Source: Ignavibacteria bacterium (GTDB lineage: Bacteria > Bacteroidota > Ignavibacteria > Tepidaquicellales > Tepidaquicellaceae). From it: a stretch of DNA of 64,000 nucleotides. The notes below the pieces were generated by a model that was given only the letters and a program-made list of their open reading frames with translations, ran no database searches and was not told the origin of the DNA. Shown here piece by piece: positions 13,080 to 18,875 of the stretch. How positions within the stretch are numbered: the stretch's first letter is position 1; each line of letters starts with the position of its first letter. The stretch covers positions 62,001 through 126,000 of the forward strand of contig DATAJP010000004.1 in NCBI GenBank assembly GCA_036262055.1, written 5' to 3'. The translations under genes and the position numbers were made by a program.

Positions 13080-15452
13080 TTACAAGCTCCATAAATACTG
13101 GAACTTCAAAAATATCTGGCGGTAGGATTCTTTGTAGAAGTTATGGTTGTTTGCGCCGCTGAACTCCTCGAAGCTGTGAGTCGAACCGACATATAGTACC
13201 GTGAAGGGATTCCACTTGTAGCTTACAAGCGGGTCAAAGTTAAAACTGTTTGAAAAACTATTGTATTGCGTAACCAATCTGCATGCAAAATGCTTATCAA
13301 TCTGATAAGTAACTTTATTGTTCATAACATAACCTGCATATTCTCTCGCATCGTTTCCGTTCTGTGATACATCTTCATAACTGTATTCAAAATCCATTCT
13401 TATTCTGTCAATTGGGAGAAACGTGAACCAAAAATTCAAAATTTGTCCATTCCCCACGTATGGATTATCCTGCCTCACTATGTATTTACCTTTTTCATAA
13501 TTAAATCCGCCGCGTATAAGCTTGAATGAATTTATATCCGAACCGATTCTCCAGCGGTTAACGTTCCTGTGATTTATTCCTCCATAAACTTCATTGTTAA
13601 CAGCAAGATATGCAGGATAAATATAAATTCCATTTGCAAATGCTACTGTAGTTTGCAATTGCAAAAATTGCTCCCGCGGTGCACCTTTTGTATCCCATCT
13701 CATATAGCCCCAGAAGTTCGGCGTAAAGTCATTGACAACTTTGCCTTCAGGATAAATGCTGTACCCCTGCTCGAAATAAAAATCCATAATGTTGTTGCGG
13801 CTTATGAATCCGTTATCTTTCCGCGCAACCGGAGGAGAGTATGAGGCTTCATTATAAAACCACCAGTTTCTTGCGCGCCTGCTGAATGCAAGAAATCCTC
13901 CAAGACCATTATAGCTCTCACCGTTGAATGCAGCAGTATATTGATTATTATTTCCAAACTTATCCTGCTCATTAAATAACGCAGTATCGTTAAGCTCTTT
14001 TGTTGAATATCCAAGCGCTTGTCCTATTACAAGATAATTGCTTGCGAAGGCATAACGCCAGTTAATTCCGATTATTCTATTATATCCGCTGAAGTCAAAA
14101 GATTTTGTGCTGTCTTTTGTAAATTCCCTGTCCGAATAAATCATTCCCACAAAGCTTTCATTGCCTAAATCATACTTTACTCTCAATATATTTGAAAGCG
14201 ACTTTCTATTAGAAGGAACGATATAGGTTTTTTCTTCAAGTGGAACAAGAAAAGTTGTGTTATGGTCATACGCGTTCATATAACCGAACTCATACTTCCC
14301 GATTCTCCCGGTTATCTTGCTTGCAAACAGCGGATTGTTTATTGCTCTTGTATAAACAATATTTCCCGGCACATTAAAAACCGAAGACCCTTCCAAAAAG
14401 AACGGTCGCTTTTCCTGAAGAAATAATGCGAATGGATTATTAGCATCTATTATCTGAGCATCAGCTTCAATCTGGCTGAAGTCCGGGTTATACGTAAAAT
14501 CTAAAGTTGTTGTTGATGAAATTCCATATTTAAGTGTTCCACCGATATTAAGATTTACCTTATCATGTTCAAGAACAGGAACCTGAGAATTATTAACCGC
14601 GCTCGTTTGATTTCCGGCTATGTAAGGCATTATCTCAAGATTTTTTCCGCGTTTAATATTTTTTATGCCTTTGAAAATTCCTGCCTGCCCGAGAAAATTG
14701 GGGTTATCACGCGATACAGATGCCCAATAAATTCTCTGCCTTGCGCCGCGCACGCGGTTGCGAAGCAAATGCACACGCCAGGTTTGTTCTTCCGTATCAG
14801 GAAATTTTAATGACTTAAAAGGAATGCGAATCTCAGCTGTCCACCTGTCATTATATCTTTGAGTTTCGGATTCATAAATATAATCAGGACTTGAATCTTC
14901 GTTGTTCACTGTCCAGAATAAATCCCCTTGTATGCCCTGAGGGTTCACATAAAATTCAAACGCCTGTTTTTCATCGTTGTATGTATCGATGAACGGTCCG
15001 ACCCAGTCATCCTGATACATAAAATCCCTGTCACACATGCTTCCGCGAACAGTTGACATGTCATCATAACAAATGTATGCGAAATAAATCGCATCGTCGT
15101 CATAAGCGACATATACTTTTGTATCGACTTCGGGCTTCACGTTATCTCCGGGATTTATTTCAGTGAAGTTATCCGCAACGGATGCTTCTTTCCAGATTTC
15201 CTCGATAATTTTTCCATCAATCGTAATGGAGTTATTCGGAATTTTGTTGATATGAAGTTCGGGGGTAATGTTAGGTTTAAATTCAGATTCTTTTATACTT
15301 GAAGTATCACTTGAAATGTTAACAGTCTTCTGTACTTTTTCTCCATCGGTGCTTCTTGTGCTGTCTATGCTTCCTGACTCCTGTGAGAAGCCAACGGAGG
15401 AAAACAGCAATGCCGCGAACAAAATTAACTTTGCAAGTATGAGGGGTTTCAC
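13080..15452 (-). CDS. DUF5916 outer-membrane protein with N-terminal CBM9-like domain
   Basis: A 790-residue exported protein (signal peptide ...LFAALLFSSVGFSQ). Residues about 65-265 form a CBM9-type beta-sandwich ('NKIPNNSITIDGKIIEEIWKE', 'VYVAYDDDAIYFAYICYDD', 'WTAEIRIPFKSLKFPD'). The remainder is DUF5916, with the landmarks 'DFTYNPDFSQIEADAQ' and 'FLQEKRPFFLEGSSVF' and many amphipathic strands expected of a C-terminal beta-barrel. Family members are thought to sit in the outer membrane; the ligand is unknown. The start is GTG at 15452. Monocistronic, divergent from the MFS gene across 132 bp. Confidence 0.85.
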   Translation of the reverse strand: MKPLILAKLILFAALLFSSVGFSQESGSIDSTRSTDGEKVQKTVNISSDTSSIKESEFKPNITPELHINKIPNNSITIDGKIIEEIWKEASVADNFTEINPGDNVKPEVDTKVYVAYDDDAIYFAYICYDDMSTVRGSMCDRDFMYQDDWVGPFIDTYNDEKQAFEFYVNPQGIQGDLFWTVNNEDSSPDYIYESETQRYNDRWTAEIRIPFKSLKFPDTEEQTWRVHLLRNRVRGARQRIYWASVSRDNPNFLGQAGIFKGIKNIKRGKNLEIMPYIAGNQTSAVNNSQVPVLEHDKVNLNIGGTLKYGISSTTTLDFTYNPDFSQIEADAQIIDANNPFALFLQEKRPFFLEGSSVFNVPGNIVYTRAINNPLFASKITGRIGKYEFGYMNAYDHNTTFLVPLEEKTYIVPSNRKSLSNILRVKYDLGNESFVGMIYSDREFTKDSTKSFDFSGYNRIIGINWRYAFASNYLVIGQALGYSTKELNDTALFNEQDKFGNNNQYTAAFNGESYNGLGGFLAFSRRARNWWFYNEASYSPPVARKDNGFISRNNIMDFYFEQGYSIYPEGKVVNDFTPNFWGYMRWDTKGAPREQFLQLQTTVAFANGIYIYPAYLAVNNEVYGGINHRNVNRWRIGSDINSFKLIRGGFNYEKGKYIVRQDNPYVGNGQILNFWFTFLPIDRIRMDFEYSYEDVSQNGNDAREYAGYVMNNKVTYQIDKHFACRLVTQYNSFSNSFNFDPLVSYKWNPFTVLYVGSTHSFEEFSGANNHNFYKESYRQIFLKFQYLWSL

Positions 15453-15584: not shown

Positions 15585-16805
15585 ATGGAAAAAGTTTCTG
15601 CGCTTAAGATTAAGGAATTTAAGTTTTTTCTTCTGACACGTTTATCTATGGTGCTTGCAACACAAATGCAGGCGGTGATTGTCGGATGGCAGGTTTATGA
15701 AATTACCAAAGACCCGTTTTCGCTTGGATTAATCGGGCTTGCAGAGGCGATTCCGTCAATTTTGATTTCTCTTTATGCCGGGCACGTTGTTGACAGAAAC
15801 GACCGGAAAAAAATAATTTTCTGGGCTTCTCTCGGAATGATTTTCTGTTCTGTATCGCTTTTATTTATTTCAACAAACATAAGCTCGCTTCTTGCAGATA
15901 ACCGTCTTGTTCTTATATATAGTGTGATTTTTTTGAGCGGTATTGCGCGGGGTTATCTGAGTCCCGCTAACTTTGCTTTCCTTGCGCAGATTGTTCCGAG
16001 AGAAATATATCCGAATGCAATTTCATGGAATACGTCTAACTGGCAATTCGGAATGGTTGTCGGTCCCGCACTCGGAGGGCTGATTTACGGATTCGCAGGT
16101 GTTACAGCTGCTTATGCAGTCGATGCTTTGCTCACTTTTGCTTCAATTGGTTTTCTTATGATGATTAAAAGTAAGCCTGTTCCTGATTTCAATGAAGAAG
16201 AAAGCTTGAAAGACAGTTTAACTGCAGGTGTTAAATTTGTTTTTAAGAATAAAATAATTCTCGGGGCAATTTCGCTCGATTTATTCGCCGTGCTGTTCGG
16301 CGGAGCGGTTGCAATTCTTCCGATATATGCGGGAGAAATTTTACTTGTCGGACCTGAAGGACTTGGGGCATTGCGGGCAGCTCCGGCAGTCGGCGCAGTA
16401 ATGATGGCTATATATATGACACGTCGTCCATTAACGAAAAACGCAGGAAGAAATTTGCTTGTAACGGTGTTTTTATTCGGACTTAGTATGATGATATTCG
16501 GCATTTCAAAAAGTTTTTATTTATCGTTATTTGCATTAGCTCTCAGCGGAGCATTTGATGCAGTGAGTGTTGTTATCAGGTCGTTGATTATACAATTAAA
16601 AACACCTGATAACATGAAAGGACGTGTTTCTTCAGTGGATTCAATTTTTGTGGGTTCATCAAATGAAATAGGAGCATTTGAATCCGGCTTGATGGCAAAG
16701 CTTATGGGAACGGTCCCTTCGGTTGTTTTTAATTCTGTTATGACATTAATTGTAGTTGTTGTAATAGCGGCGGGCTCGCCAAAATTGAGAAAATTAAAAT
16801 TGTAA
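15585..16805 (+). CDS. MFS exporter (MFS_3/EntS-like)
   Basis: A 406-residue protein with about 12 hydrophobic segments. Typical MFS_3 features are the N-terminal 'FFLLTRLSMVLATQMQAVIVGWQVYEIT', the loop 2-3 motif 'GHVVDRNDRKKIIF' (motif A, D-R-x-D/N-R-K/R) and 'VIRSLIIQLKTPDNMKGRVSSVDSIFVGSSNEIGAF'. Relatives export siderophores and small drugs by proton antiport. It is the first gene of a tight trio: the P450 start lies 1 bp after its stop. That context suggests export of the product of the P450/acyltransferase pair, or tolerance to their substrate; this is inference. Confidence 0.9.
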   Translation: MEKVSALKIKEFKFFLLTRLSMVLATQMQAVIVGWQVYEITKDPFSLGLIGLAEAIPSILISLYAGHVVDRNDRKKIIFWASLGMIFCSVSLLFISTNISSLLADNRLVLIYSVIFLSGIARGYLSPANFAFLAQIVPREIYPNAISWNTSNWQFGMVVGPALGGLIYGFAGVTAAYAVDALLTFASIGFLMMIKSKPVPDFNEEESLKDSLTAGVKFVFKNKIILGAISLDLFAVLFGGAVAILPIYAGEILLVGPEGLGALRAAPAVGAVMMAIYMTRRPLTKNAGRNLLVTVFLFGLSMMIFGISKSFYLSLFALALSGAFDAVSVVIRSLIIQLKTPDNMKGRVSSVDSIFVGSSNEIGAFESGLMAKLMGTVPSVVFNSVMTLIVVVVIAAGSPKLRKLKL

Positions 16806-16806
16806 T

Positions 16807-18165
16807 TTGACAAAACAAGAAACAAAATATATATTCCCTCCCGGACCTGAAGAGAGTTTCTTCGGAGCGAATGCAAGCTACAGTTTTTATTTTAAAATCT
16901 TAGATTATTTAATAGACCTGCATAAAAAATACGGTGATGCGGTTCACTTTAAAGCTATGAAGCATCACATGTATTTAATCAGCGATGTGGATTTAGTTGA
17001 AAAGATTCTTGTAAAACATCCCGATAAATTCCTGAAAGGCACTTCGGTTCAGAGATTAAAAATAATTTTAGGAACAGGACTAATTTCAAGCGAAGGCGAA
17101 GTTCACGACACACACCGTAAGATGATGGCACCTTTTTTTCAAAAGAACAGCGTGTCAAAGTATATGAATAATGTTATCGTGAGCATCGATGATATGTTTA
17201 GCAAATGGGATAAAAAAATTGCACAAGGGAAACACATTGAGATACATGAAGAATCGGGTGATTTATTTGTTGAGATGATTCTTCAAAGTATTTTCTCGGA
17301 TGATTGTTATGAAGAATTAATTACAATCGGACAATATTTAAACAAGCTGTTCTATAATGCAAGTCCTCTGCTTCTTATTGCTCCTGACATATCACTTAAA
17401 CTGCCTATTCCCGAATCAATCCGTTTCAAAAAAATTAAAAAGAAATTTGATGCACAGTTAAAAAAAATAATTAAAGAGAGAATTCAATCGCATAAACGAA
17501 AAGAGGATTTGCTTGATGCTCTGATTCATGCAAAGACAAATTCAGGGTATAAAATGGATGAGGTTGCGATTTACAATGAGGTGATTACTCTATATATAGC
17601 AGCATCTGATACAAGCTCAAAAATTTTAGCGTGGACATTTTATCTTCTTGCAAAGCATCACGACATCAAAGAAAAAGTTTTTGAAGAAATAAATTCTCTT
17701 AGTGAAGAGATAAAATATTCTGATTTAGATAAATTGATTTATACACGATGTCTTATTGCTGAGACATTGAGGTTGTACCCTCCTGTGTGGGCAATTTCGA
17801 GAAATCCAACTGAAGATTTGATTTTAAATAATTATATTTTCAAAAAAAATTCGACGGTTTTATTATTCCCTTTTATTATTCACAGAGATAAAAGATTTTA
17901 CAACGAACCTTTGAAGTGCCGTCCGGAGCGCTGGTTAAACGACGAGAGAAAGCTAGTTGCTAAGTATGCTTACATACCTTTCGGAGCTGGACCGCGGGTT
18001 TGTCTCGGGGATAATTTTGCATGGATGGAATTGTTAATCTCGATTATAAAAATCATGAGACATTATGATTTCAAGCTTGCGCATCAGAAAGAAGTCGAGC
18101 TGTCATCTTCCATTACATTAAAACCAAAAGACGGAATATTTCTGAAAGTTCATCGTAAAAAGTGA
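16807..18165 (+). CDS. Cytochrome P450
   Basis: A soluble 452-residue haem-thiolate monooxygenase. Visible family signatures: I-helix 'YIAASDTSSKILAW' (the A-A/G-x-D-T oxygen-activation motif), K-helix ExxR in 'ETLRLYPPVW', the 'CRPERW' PERF-like motif, and the haem loop 'PFGAGPRVCLGDNFA' with C399 as iron ligand. There is no membrane anchor. The length and 'PPGPEESFFG...' N-terminus suit bacterial fatty-acid or terpenoid/sterol-type P450s (CYP4-like flavour), but the substrate is not deducible. The start is TTG at 16807, chosen because it retains the proline-rich hinge and lies one base after the MFS stop. No ferredoxin or reductase gene is adjacent. Confidence 0.93.
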   Translation: MTKQETKYIFPPGPEESFFGANASYSFYFKILDYLIDLHKKYGDAVHFKAMKHHMYLISDVDLVEKILVKHPDKFLKGTSVQRLKIILGTGLISSEGEVHDTHRKMMAPFFQKNSVSKYMNNVIVSIDDMFSKWDKKIAQGKHIEIHEESGDLFVEMILQSIFSDDCYEELITIGQYLNKLFYNASPLLLIAPDISLKLPIPESIRFKKIKKKFDAQLKKIIKERIQSHKRKEDLLDALIHAKTNSGYKMDEVAIYNEVITLYIAASDTSSKILAWTFYLLAKHHDIKEKVFEEINSLSEEIKYSDLDKLIYTRCLIAETLRLYPPVWAISRNPTEDLILNNYIFKKNSTVLLFPFIIHRDKRFYNEPLKCRPERWLNDERKLVAKYAYIPFGAGPRVCLGDNFAWMELLISIIKIMRHYDFKLAHQKEVELSSSITLKPKDGIFLKVHRKK

Positions 18166-18875
18166 AGAAAAAAAAGATAAATATCCTTCGTTACGCAATT
18201 CAGGATTTGATTACGCTCGGCAAACGAAAAAATAATGCTTATATTTTTGGCAAGCTCGACGTGACTGAGTGCATTTCAAAGCTCGAACAAAAAAAGATTC
18301 CGCTTTATCCTTATCTTTTATATTGCTACAGCAGAACTGTTGCTGATAATAAAAATCCAATAAATACTTATTGGGAAAAACAAAAAAATGTTATTGAGTT
18401 TGATGAAGTTGATGTTGCAATTACAGTCGTGAGAAGAATCGAAGGTGAGATAATCCCGTTATTTTACATAATCCGAAATGCTCATAGTAAGAGTATCGAA
18501 GATTTCGATAATGAAATTAGCATTGCAAAACGCAAACCTGTTTCTGAGCTCCTTGATAAAAATGCAATGTGGTTTTATAAACTTCCTCTGTGGCTGAGAA
18601 ATAAATACTGGCATTATGTAAGCAGAAGACCTGAGCTTATAAAAAAATATTTCGGCACTACAGCAATAACGACGCTTCATAACATGGGTGATTCACCTTT
18701 ACAGGGGATAACCGACAGCATACACACATTTACTTTCGCAATCGGCTCTATACTAAATGAAGATGGGAAAATCTGGTTGAGGTATTCCGCAATGCTTGAC
18801 CATAACATACTTGATGGTTTGCCTGCAGTAAAATTCGTTGAAGAGTTTAAAACAAAATTATTAACTTCAATTTAA
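18162..18875 (+). CDS. Stand-alone E2/CAT-type acyltransferase domain protein
   Basis: A 237-residue protein resembling only the catalytic domain of 2-oxoacid dehydrogenase E2 and chloramphenicol acetyltransferase. 'LYPYLLYCYSRTVADN', 'VDVAITVVRRIEGE' and the C-terminal 'AMLDHNILDGLPAVKFVEEF' carry the catalytic histidine (H214) and aspartate (D218) of the HxxxDG motif. No lipoyl or peripheral-subunit-binding domain is present and no E1/E3 genes are nearby. It is therefore unlikely to work in a dehydrogenase complex; acyl transfer from CoA to a small molecule is more plausible. The GTG start at 18162 overlaps the P450 stop (GTGA). Its 3' end overlaps the opposing kinase gene by 9 bp. Confidence 0.8.
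   Translation: MKKKKINILRYAIQDLITLGKRKNNAYIFGKLDVTECISKLEQKKIPLYPYLLYCYSRTVADNKNPINTYWEKQKNVIEFDEVDVAITVVRRIEGEIIPLFYIIRNAHSKSIEDFDNEISIAKRKPVSELLDKNAMWFYKLPLWLRNKYWHYVSRRPELIKKYFGTTAITTLHNMGDSPLQGITDSIHTFTFAIGSILNEDGKIWLRYSAMLDHNILDGLPAVKFVEEFKTKLLTSI

Follow-up and report, generated by a model that had tools for sequence, protein, structure and literature searches.

The ornithine-lipid pathway of planctomycetes includes a GH3-type enzyme, OlsH, which makes a lyso-ornithine lipid, and a separate O-acyltransferase, the alpha/beta-hydrolase OlsI, which converts this intermediate to ornithine lipid (PMC12493201). We propose the reaction of the second step, O-acylation of a hydroxy-acyl chain, for the acyltransferase (AT) of a three-gene operon in an Ignavibacteria genome, where it follows genes for an MFS transporter and a cytochrome P450. 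The AT differs from OlsI in having an E2/CAT fold, and P450s are not mentioned in that study (PMC12493201). Among known proteins, the AT is best compared with the E2 catalytic domain of 2-oxoacid dehydrogenase complexes (PF00198) and with chloramphenicol acetyltransferase (PF00302), the P450 with the CYP102/CYP120/CYP97/CYP170/CYP184 group, and the MFS protein with EntS-type exporters (MFS_3). The operon lies in a 64,000-nucleotide stretch of genomic DNA (the window), to which the gene positions below refer.

The MFS gene (15585-16805, plus strand) begins with ATG at 15585 and encodes 406 aa. It is followed by the P450 gene (16807-18165, plus strand; 452 aa) with a probable TTG start at 16807, and by the AT gene (18162-18875, plus strand; 237 aa) with a probable GTG start at 18162; in each case the last position is the end of the stop codon. 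All three genes are intact and codirectional, with spacings of +1 and -4 bp: at the MFS/P450 junction (16803-16809, plus strand) the TAA stop is separated from the TTG start by one base at 16806, and the P450 and AT genes share the 4-bp overlap GTGA (18162-18165, plus strand). The positions and spacings of the original prediction thus proved exact. It had also called the genes certainly co-translated; co-translation is supported by the near-overlaps kept in both relatives described below, where both junctions are ATGA overlaps instead of the 1-bp gap and GTGA of the window, but "certainly" is too strong for a claim made from sequence alone.

The 3' end of the AT gene overlaps the 3' end of a convergent histidine-kinase gene by 9 bp (18867-18875), so no further plus-strand member of the operon lies downstream. 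A promoter scan gave matches at chance level, and a terminator scan gave four matches against 2.6 expected, all of them within genes. Neither a regulator gene nor a redox partner gene was found within the operon. The base composition of the trio was the same as that of the surrounding DNA and thus gave no sign of recent transfer. On the other side, the trio is flanked by a gene for a DUF5916/CBM9 outer-membrane-type protein (13080-15452), which was considered as a module member and rejected because it occurs in 28 of the 29 family genomes and is a neighbour of these genes only where the trio is present. No scaffold-making gene was seen near the trio, which argues that the operon modifies a compound made elsewhere or taken up; the earlier description of a "minimal pathway" was therefore not established.

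We searched 29 genomes of the window's family for the trio and found it, in the same order, in two genomes of one sister genus, G083 (Ignavibacteria UBA6667) and G185 ('Bacteroidetes' UBA9002), but not in the remaining 26. The possibility that the three genes are scattered in close relatives was thereby checked and did not hold. Close relatives of the P450 (60% identity) were likewise confined, within this family, to G083 and G185; another genus carries a lone P450 in two genomes (36-40% identity), with neither AT nor MFS adjoining. Identity between the window and G083 was 67% for the MFS protein (67-68% across the orthologues in G083 and G185), 60% for the P450 and 43% for the AT. Synonymous divergence from G083 was near saturation (pS 0.74-0.76), while dN was 0.27 for MFS, 0.34 for P450 and 0.54 for AT, indicating purifying selection on all three genes, with the AT changing fastest. 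The AT gene of G185 appeared to be broken; the split is a run of N, that is, an assembly gap. The order kept in three genomes, at these identities and with near-saturated synonymous sites, shows that the arrangement is a real conserved operon and not a chance array. Synteny between the two genera extends to the genes that flank the trio.

The AT matched Pfam 2-oxoacid_dh (E 7e-6) and CAT (E 4e-5), barely over the cut-off in both cases. Its 237 residues form a single catalytic domain with the HxxxDG motif (DHNILDG, H214/D218) and with no lipoyl or subunit-binding domain, as had been predicted. The predicted monomer model (pLDDT 75) was nearest to E2 catalytic domains (3mae, Z about 21, 2.4 A over 199 residues), followed by CAT-III with Z about 16; motif and fold together place the AT in the E2/CAT-fold acyltransferase superfamily, whose members are trimers with the active site between subunits and take the acyl group from a CoA thioester. 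It resembles chloramphenicol acetyltransferase in fold, catalytic histidine and soluble stand-alone size, but its score against the curated CatA profile was very weak (32.8 bits, cut-off 270), so that it does not qualify as a chloramphenicol acetyltransferase. The E2 catalytic domain is alike in fold and in the HxxxDG motif, whereas the AT has neither the accessory domains nor adjoining E1/E3 genes. The genome encodes three other PF00198 proteins. Two are clear E2 proteins that carry lipoyl domains (498 and 468 aa), and the third match is within a 1242-aa frame, which by its looks we take to be a fused E1/E2 of the 2-oxoglutarate type. Phylogenetic analysis of the AT homologues together with E2 domains set the AT and 17 lipoyl-less stand-alone homologues from the phylum apart from all E2s (97/100), although some branches are long and finer placements unsure. 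The original prediction had raised the possibility that the AT groups with true E2 subunits; domain content and this tree rule out an E2 subunit of a dehydrogenase encoded elsewhere. Together with the fold, these results indicate that the AT is a stand-alone E2/CAT-fold acyltransferase rather than a dehydrogenase subunit.

The P450 matched Pfam p450 (PF00067, E 1.5e-82). It contains the helix-I pair D268-T269, E319-x-x-R322 and FGAGPRVCLG with the heme cysteine C399, and the FxxGxxxCxG and ExxR motifs, the helix-I acid-alcohol pair and the fold of the predicted model identify it as a cytochrome P450. The expectation of a P450 complete in its catalytic motifs was thus borne out, and the operon, as noted, lacks a redox partner. 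It was the sole P450 found in the 2.87-Mb genome. The nearest P450s in sequence were 3dbg (which we take to be CYP170A1), CYP97A3, CYP3A4 and CYP102, and those nearest to the model in fold were CYP184A1, CYP102, CYP120 and CYP97. It therefore resembles the CYP102/CYP120/CYP97/CYP170/CYP184 group in sequence and fold, but differs in having no fused reductase and in its low identity to solved P450s (about 19-25% in structural alignments). Identity was at most 40% to each P450 outside the trio among those compared, and none of the solved or plasmid-borne P450s among the matches listed reached 40%, the level of identity to a named CYP that was taken to define membership of a known CYP family. The top curated profiles were terpene oxidases, with scores far under the cut-offs. 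The structure of CYP184A1, one of these fold neighbours, was solved with oleic acid, and CYP102 enzymes are fatty-acid hydroxylases. The neighbours mostly act on fatty acids, terpenoids and carotenoids, which points weakly to a hydrophobic substrate; structural rank itself says little about the substrate, since the fold is common to all P450s.

The MFS protein matched Pfam MFS_3 (PF05977, E 1e-35) and MFS_1 (E 6e-32). With Pfam scores over the cut-off and multiple transmembrane segments it belongs to the MFS_3 exporter family, and its direction of transport would presumably be outward. It matched the EntS profile over its full length with 188 bits, well under the cut-off of 324, and no siderophore genes were seen nearby. 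Matches to plasmid DNA (Burkholderia) covered 4% of the query and were located in the MFS gene.

We then surveyed the neighbourhoods of AT homologues across the phylum (21 loci in 21 genomes). A P450 is the immediate neighbour of the AT not only in the trio genomes but also in G491 and in G320, G304 and G393; together these represent three families of the phylum, and the occurrence of this pair in two further families is new here. The two genes share a strand in G491, with the P450 first and 1 bp between them, and are convergent neighbours in G320, G304 and G393. Fourteen other AT-like loci had no adjoining P450, and elsewhere the AT homologue is mostly a single gene. By a rough estimate, the chance of at least two such adjacencies in 14 other lineages is no more than 6e-5, even on the assumption that all genomes carry a P450. 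The ATs with an adjoining P450 clustered in a single branch of their tree (82/87, which is not strong support), together with those of G183 and G073, each of which encodes a P450 at another place in its genome; no member of the other branch (n = 11) had an adjoining P450. The AT-linked P450s do not form one clade, which means either repeated pairing or loss of linkage, and their substrates may differ. An MFS gene joins the arrangement only in the window's family. The trio postulated as a unit thus stands within the family, but the conserved core across the phylum looks like P450 plus AT, with the exporter as a family-specific addition.

Stand-alone E2-fold homologues were also seen on haloarchaeal plasmids, where they are annotated as '2-oxo acid dehydrogenase subunit E2' and have no dehydrogenase partners nearby (L121-L125); none of these five loci has an adjoining P450, and at L122 an MFS gene and genes for SagB-type oxidases are found in the vicinity of the homologue. 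A search of the open literature, partial in coverage, returned nothing relevant on a P450 paired with an E2-type acyltransferase. All the families involved are known, and within that literature their recurrent pairing seems undescribed.

In G491, a distant member of the phylum, the pair belongs to an apparent four-gene operon (L111, 4871-10782): an 857-aa FA_hydroxylase-GH3 fusion begins 5 bp after the AT gene, and an enolase-superfamily gene follows with a 4-bp overlap. The fusion scored 200 bits against the NCBIfam OlsE profile (cut-off 475) and 73 bits against OlsH (cut-off 620), well under both equivalog cut-offs. The P450 and AT of G491 thus share an operon with an OlsE/OlsH-like protein, and the lyso-ornithine lipid made by OlsH requires a separate O-acyltransferase, which makes the AT a plausible candidate for that role. 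By guilt by association in this one genome, it is plausible that the AT serves as the O-acyltransferase and the P450 as an acyl-chain hydroxylase. The context hints at aminolipid chemistry, and the operon looks like an undescribed aminolipid-type cluster. The OlsH/OlsI pathway has a GH3 enzyme, whereas the 72% of the window's genome that we read yielded no homologue of the G491 GH3 protein, and the aminolipid setting is therefore not directly transferable; a generic FA_hydroxylase-family gene was present in the same portion.

The wider genome offers further context. It encodes two haem-copper oxidases, making oxygen use plausible. Two Fer2 (2Fe-2S) matches were found, one of them a PaaE-like FAD/2Fe-2S reductase (G000:C2, L108 5799-6893) which lies beside SUF iron-sulphur genes, with no paaABC genes nearby, and which is a candidate redox partner for the P450. 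HpnE, HpnD-like and HpnC genes stand in tandem on another contig than the trio (G000:C3, L056 7018-10243) and indicate squalene synthesis. No squalene-hopene cyclase match was found in the genome, which leaves squalene without an obvious use and led us to reject a hopanoid as the substrate.

We propose that the trio is a tailoring operon: a hydrophobic molecule, possibly a lipid, would be hydroxylated by the P450 and O-acylated by the AT, and the MFS protein would move the product. We give this reading roughly even chances. The P450 would receive electrons from a reductase encoded elsewhere, and its target would most probably be a chain of a fatty-acyl group or another lipid; the HxxxDG histidine of the AT may act as general base in the transfer of an acyl group from acyl-CoA to the new hydroxyl; and the MFS protein would carry the product across the inner membrane. 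The P450 and AT probably act in turn on one compound, perhaps lipid-like, and a lipid substrate is favoured by the distant G491 operon with its OlsE/OlsH-like enzymes. Points that weigh against this reading are the lack of a G491-type GH3 homologue in the portion of the genome read, the low OlsE/OlsH scores in G491, the scatter of the linked P450s over more than one clade and the haloarchaeal AT homologues that have no P450 next to them. The main rival, which the original prediction did not consider, is detoxification, in which the P450 (phase I) would oxidise a foreign hydrophobic compound, the CAT-like AT (phase II) acylate it and the MFS protein (phase III) expel it. The MFS protein weakly matched multidrug, macrolide and tetracycline efflux profiles and the AT weakly matched CatA-type profiles, but every resistance profile was far under its cut-off. 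The patchy presence of the trio within the family and the lack of scaffold-synthesis genes around it, with no obvious NRPS/PKS by motif in 72% of the genome, also fit detoxification; however, the operon has no regulator, it keeps its place in a syntenic region and has an unremarkable base composition rather than signs of recent acquisition, and the G491 pair adjoins apparent lipid-synthesis genes and no pump. On balance we consider detoxification rather unlikely.

A terpenoid role, in which squalene, or an isoprenoid derived from it, would be hydroxylated by the P450 and then esterified by the AT, draws on the apparently unused squalene, on the terpene oxidases among the nearest P450 profiles and on the proximity of CYP97 carotene hydroxylases in sequence and fold. 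The separate location of the hpnCDE-type genes and the low profile scores argue against it, and we regard it as doubtful. That the three genes are only co-inherited and share no pathway, with the AT serving, for example, coenzyme-A or amino-acid metabolism, appears very unlikely: the synteny of the flanking genes and the mostly single AT genes elsewhere would suit such an explanation, but the P450 and AT genes are also neighbours in two other families, where synteny is not shared, and the tight junctions are conserved in relatives.

For the tailoring reading, the P450-AT pairing in three lineages provides a concrete, testable reaction proposal: hydroxylation followed by O-acylation. The public annotation '2-oxo acid dehydrogenase subunit E2' for stand-alone E2-fold proteins hides a separate acyltransferase group. 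The G491 operon provides a link to the aminolipids of Bacteroidota-type bacteria, in which genes for many membrane-lipid modifications lack assignment. A more specific and speculative form, which we think unlikely as it stands, is that the P450 and a domesticated dehydrogenase-type O-acyltransferase constitute a hitherto undescribed module for making lipids with acyloxyacyl or other O-acyl groups, served in some Ignavibacteria by a dedicated MFS transporter; the P450 would introduce the hydroxyl into a fatty chain and the acyltransferase would esterify it. If true, aminolipid-like synthesis would have a new type of enzyme for its second step.
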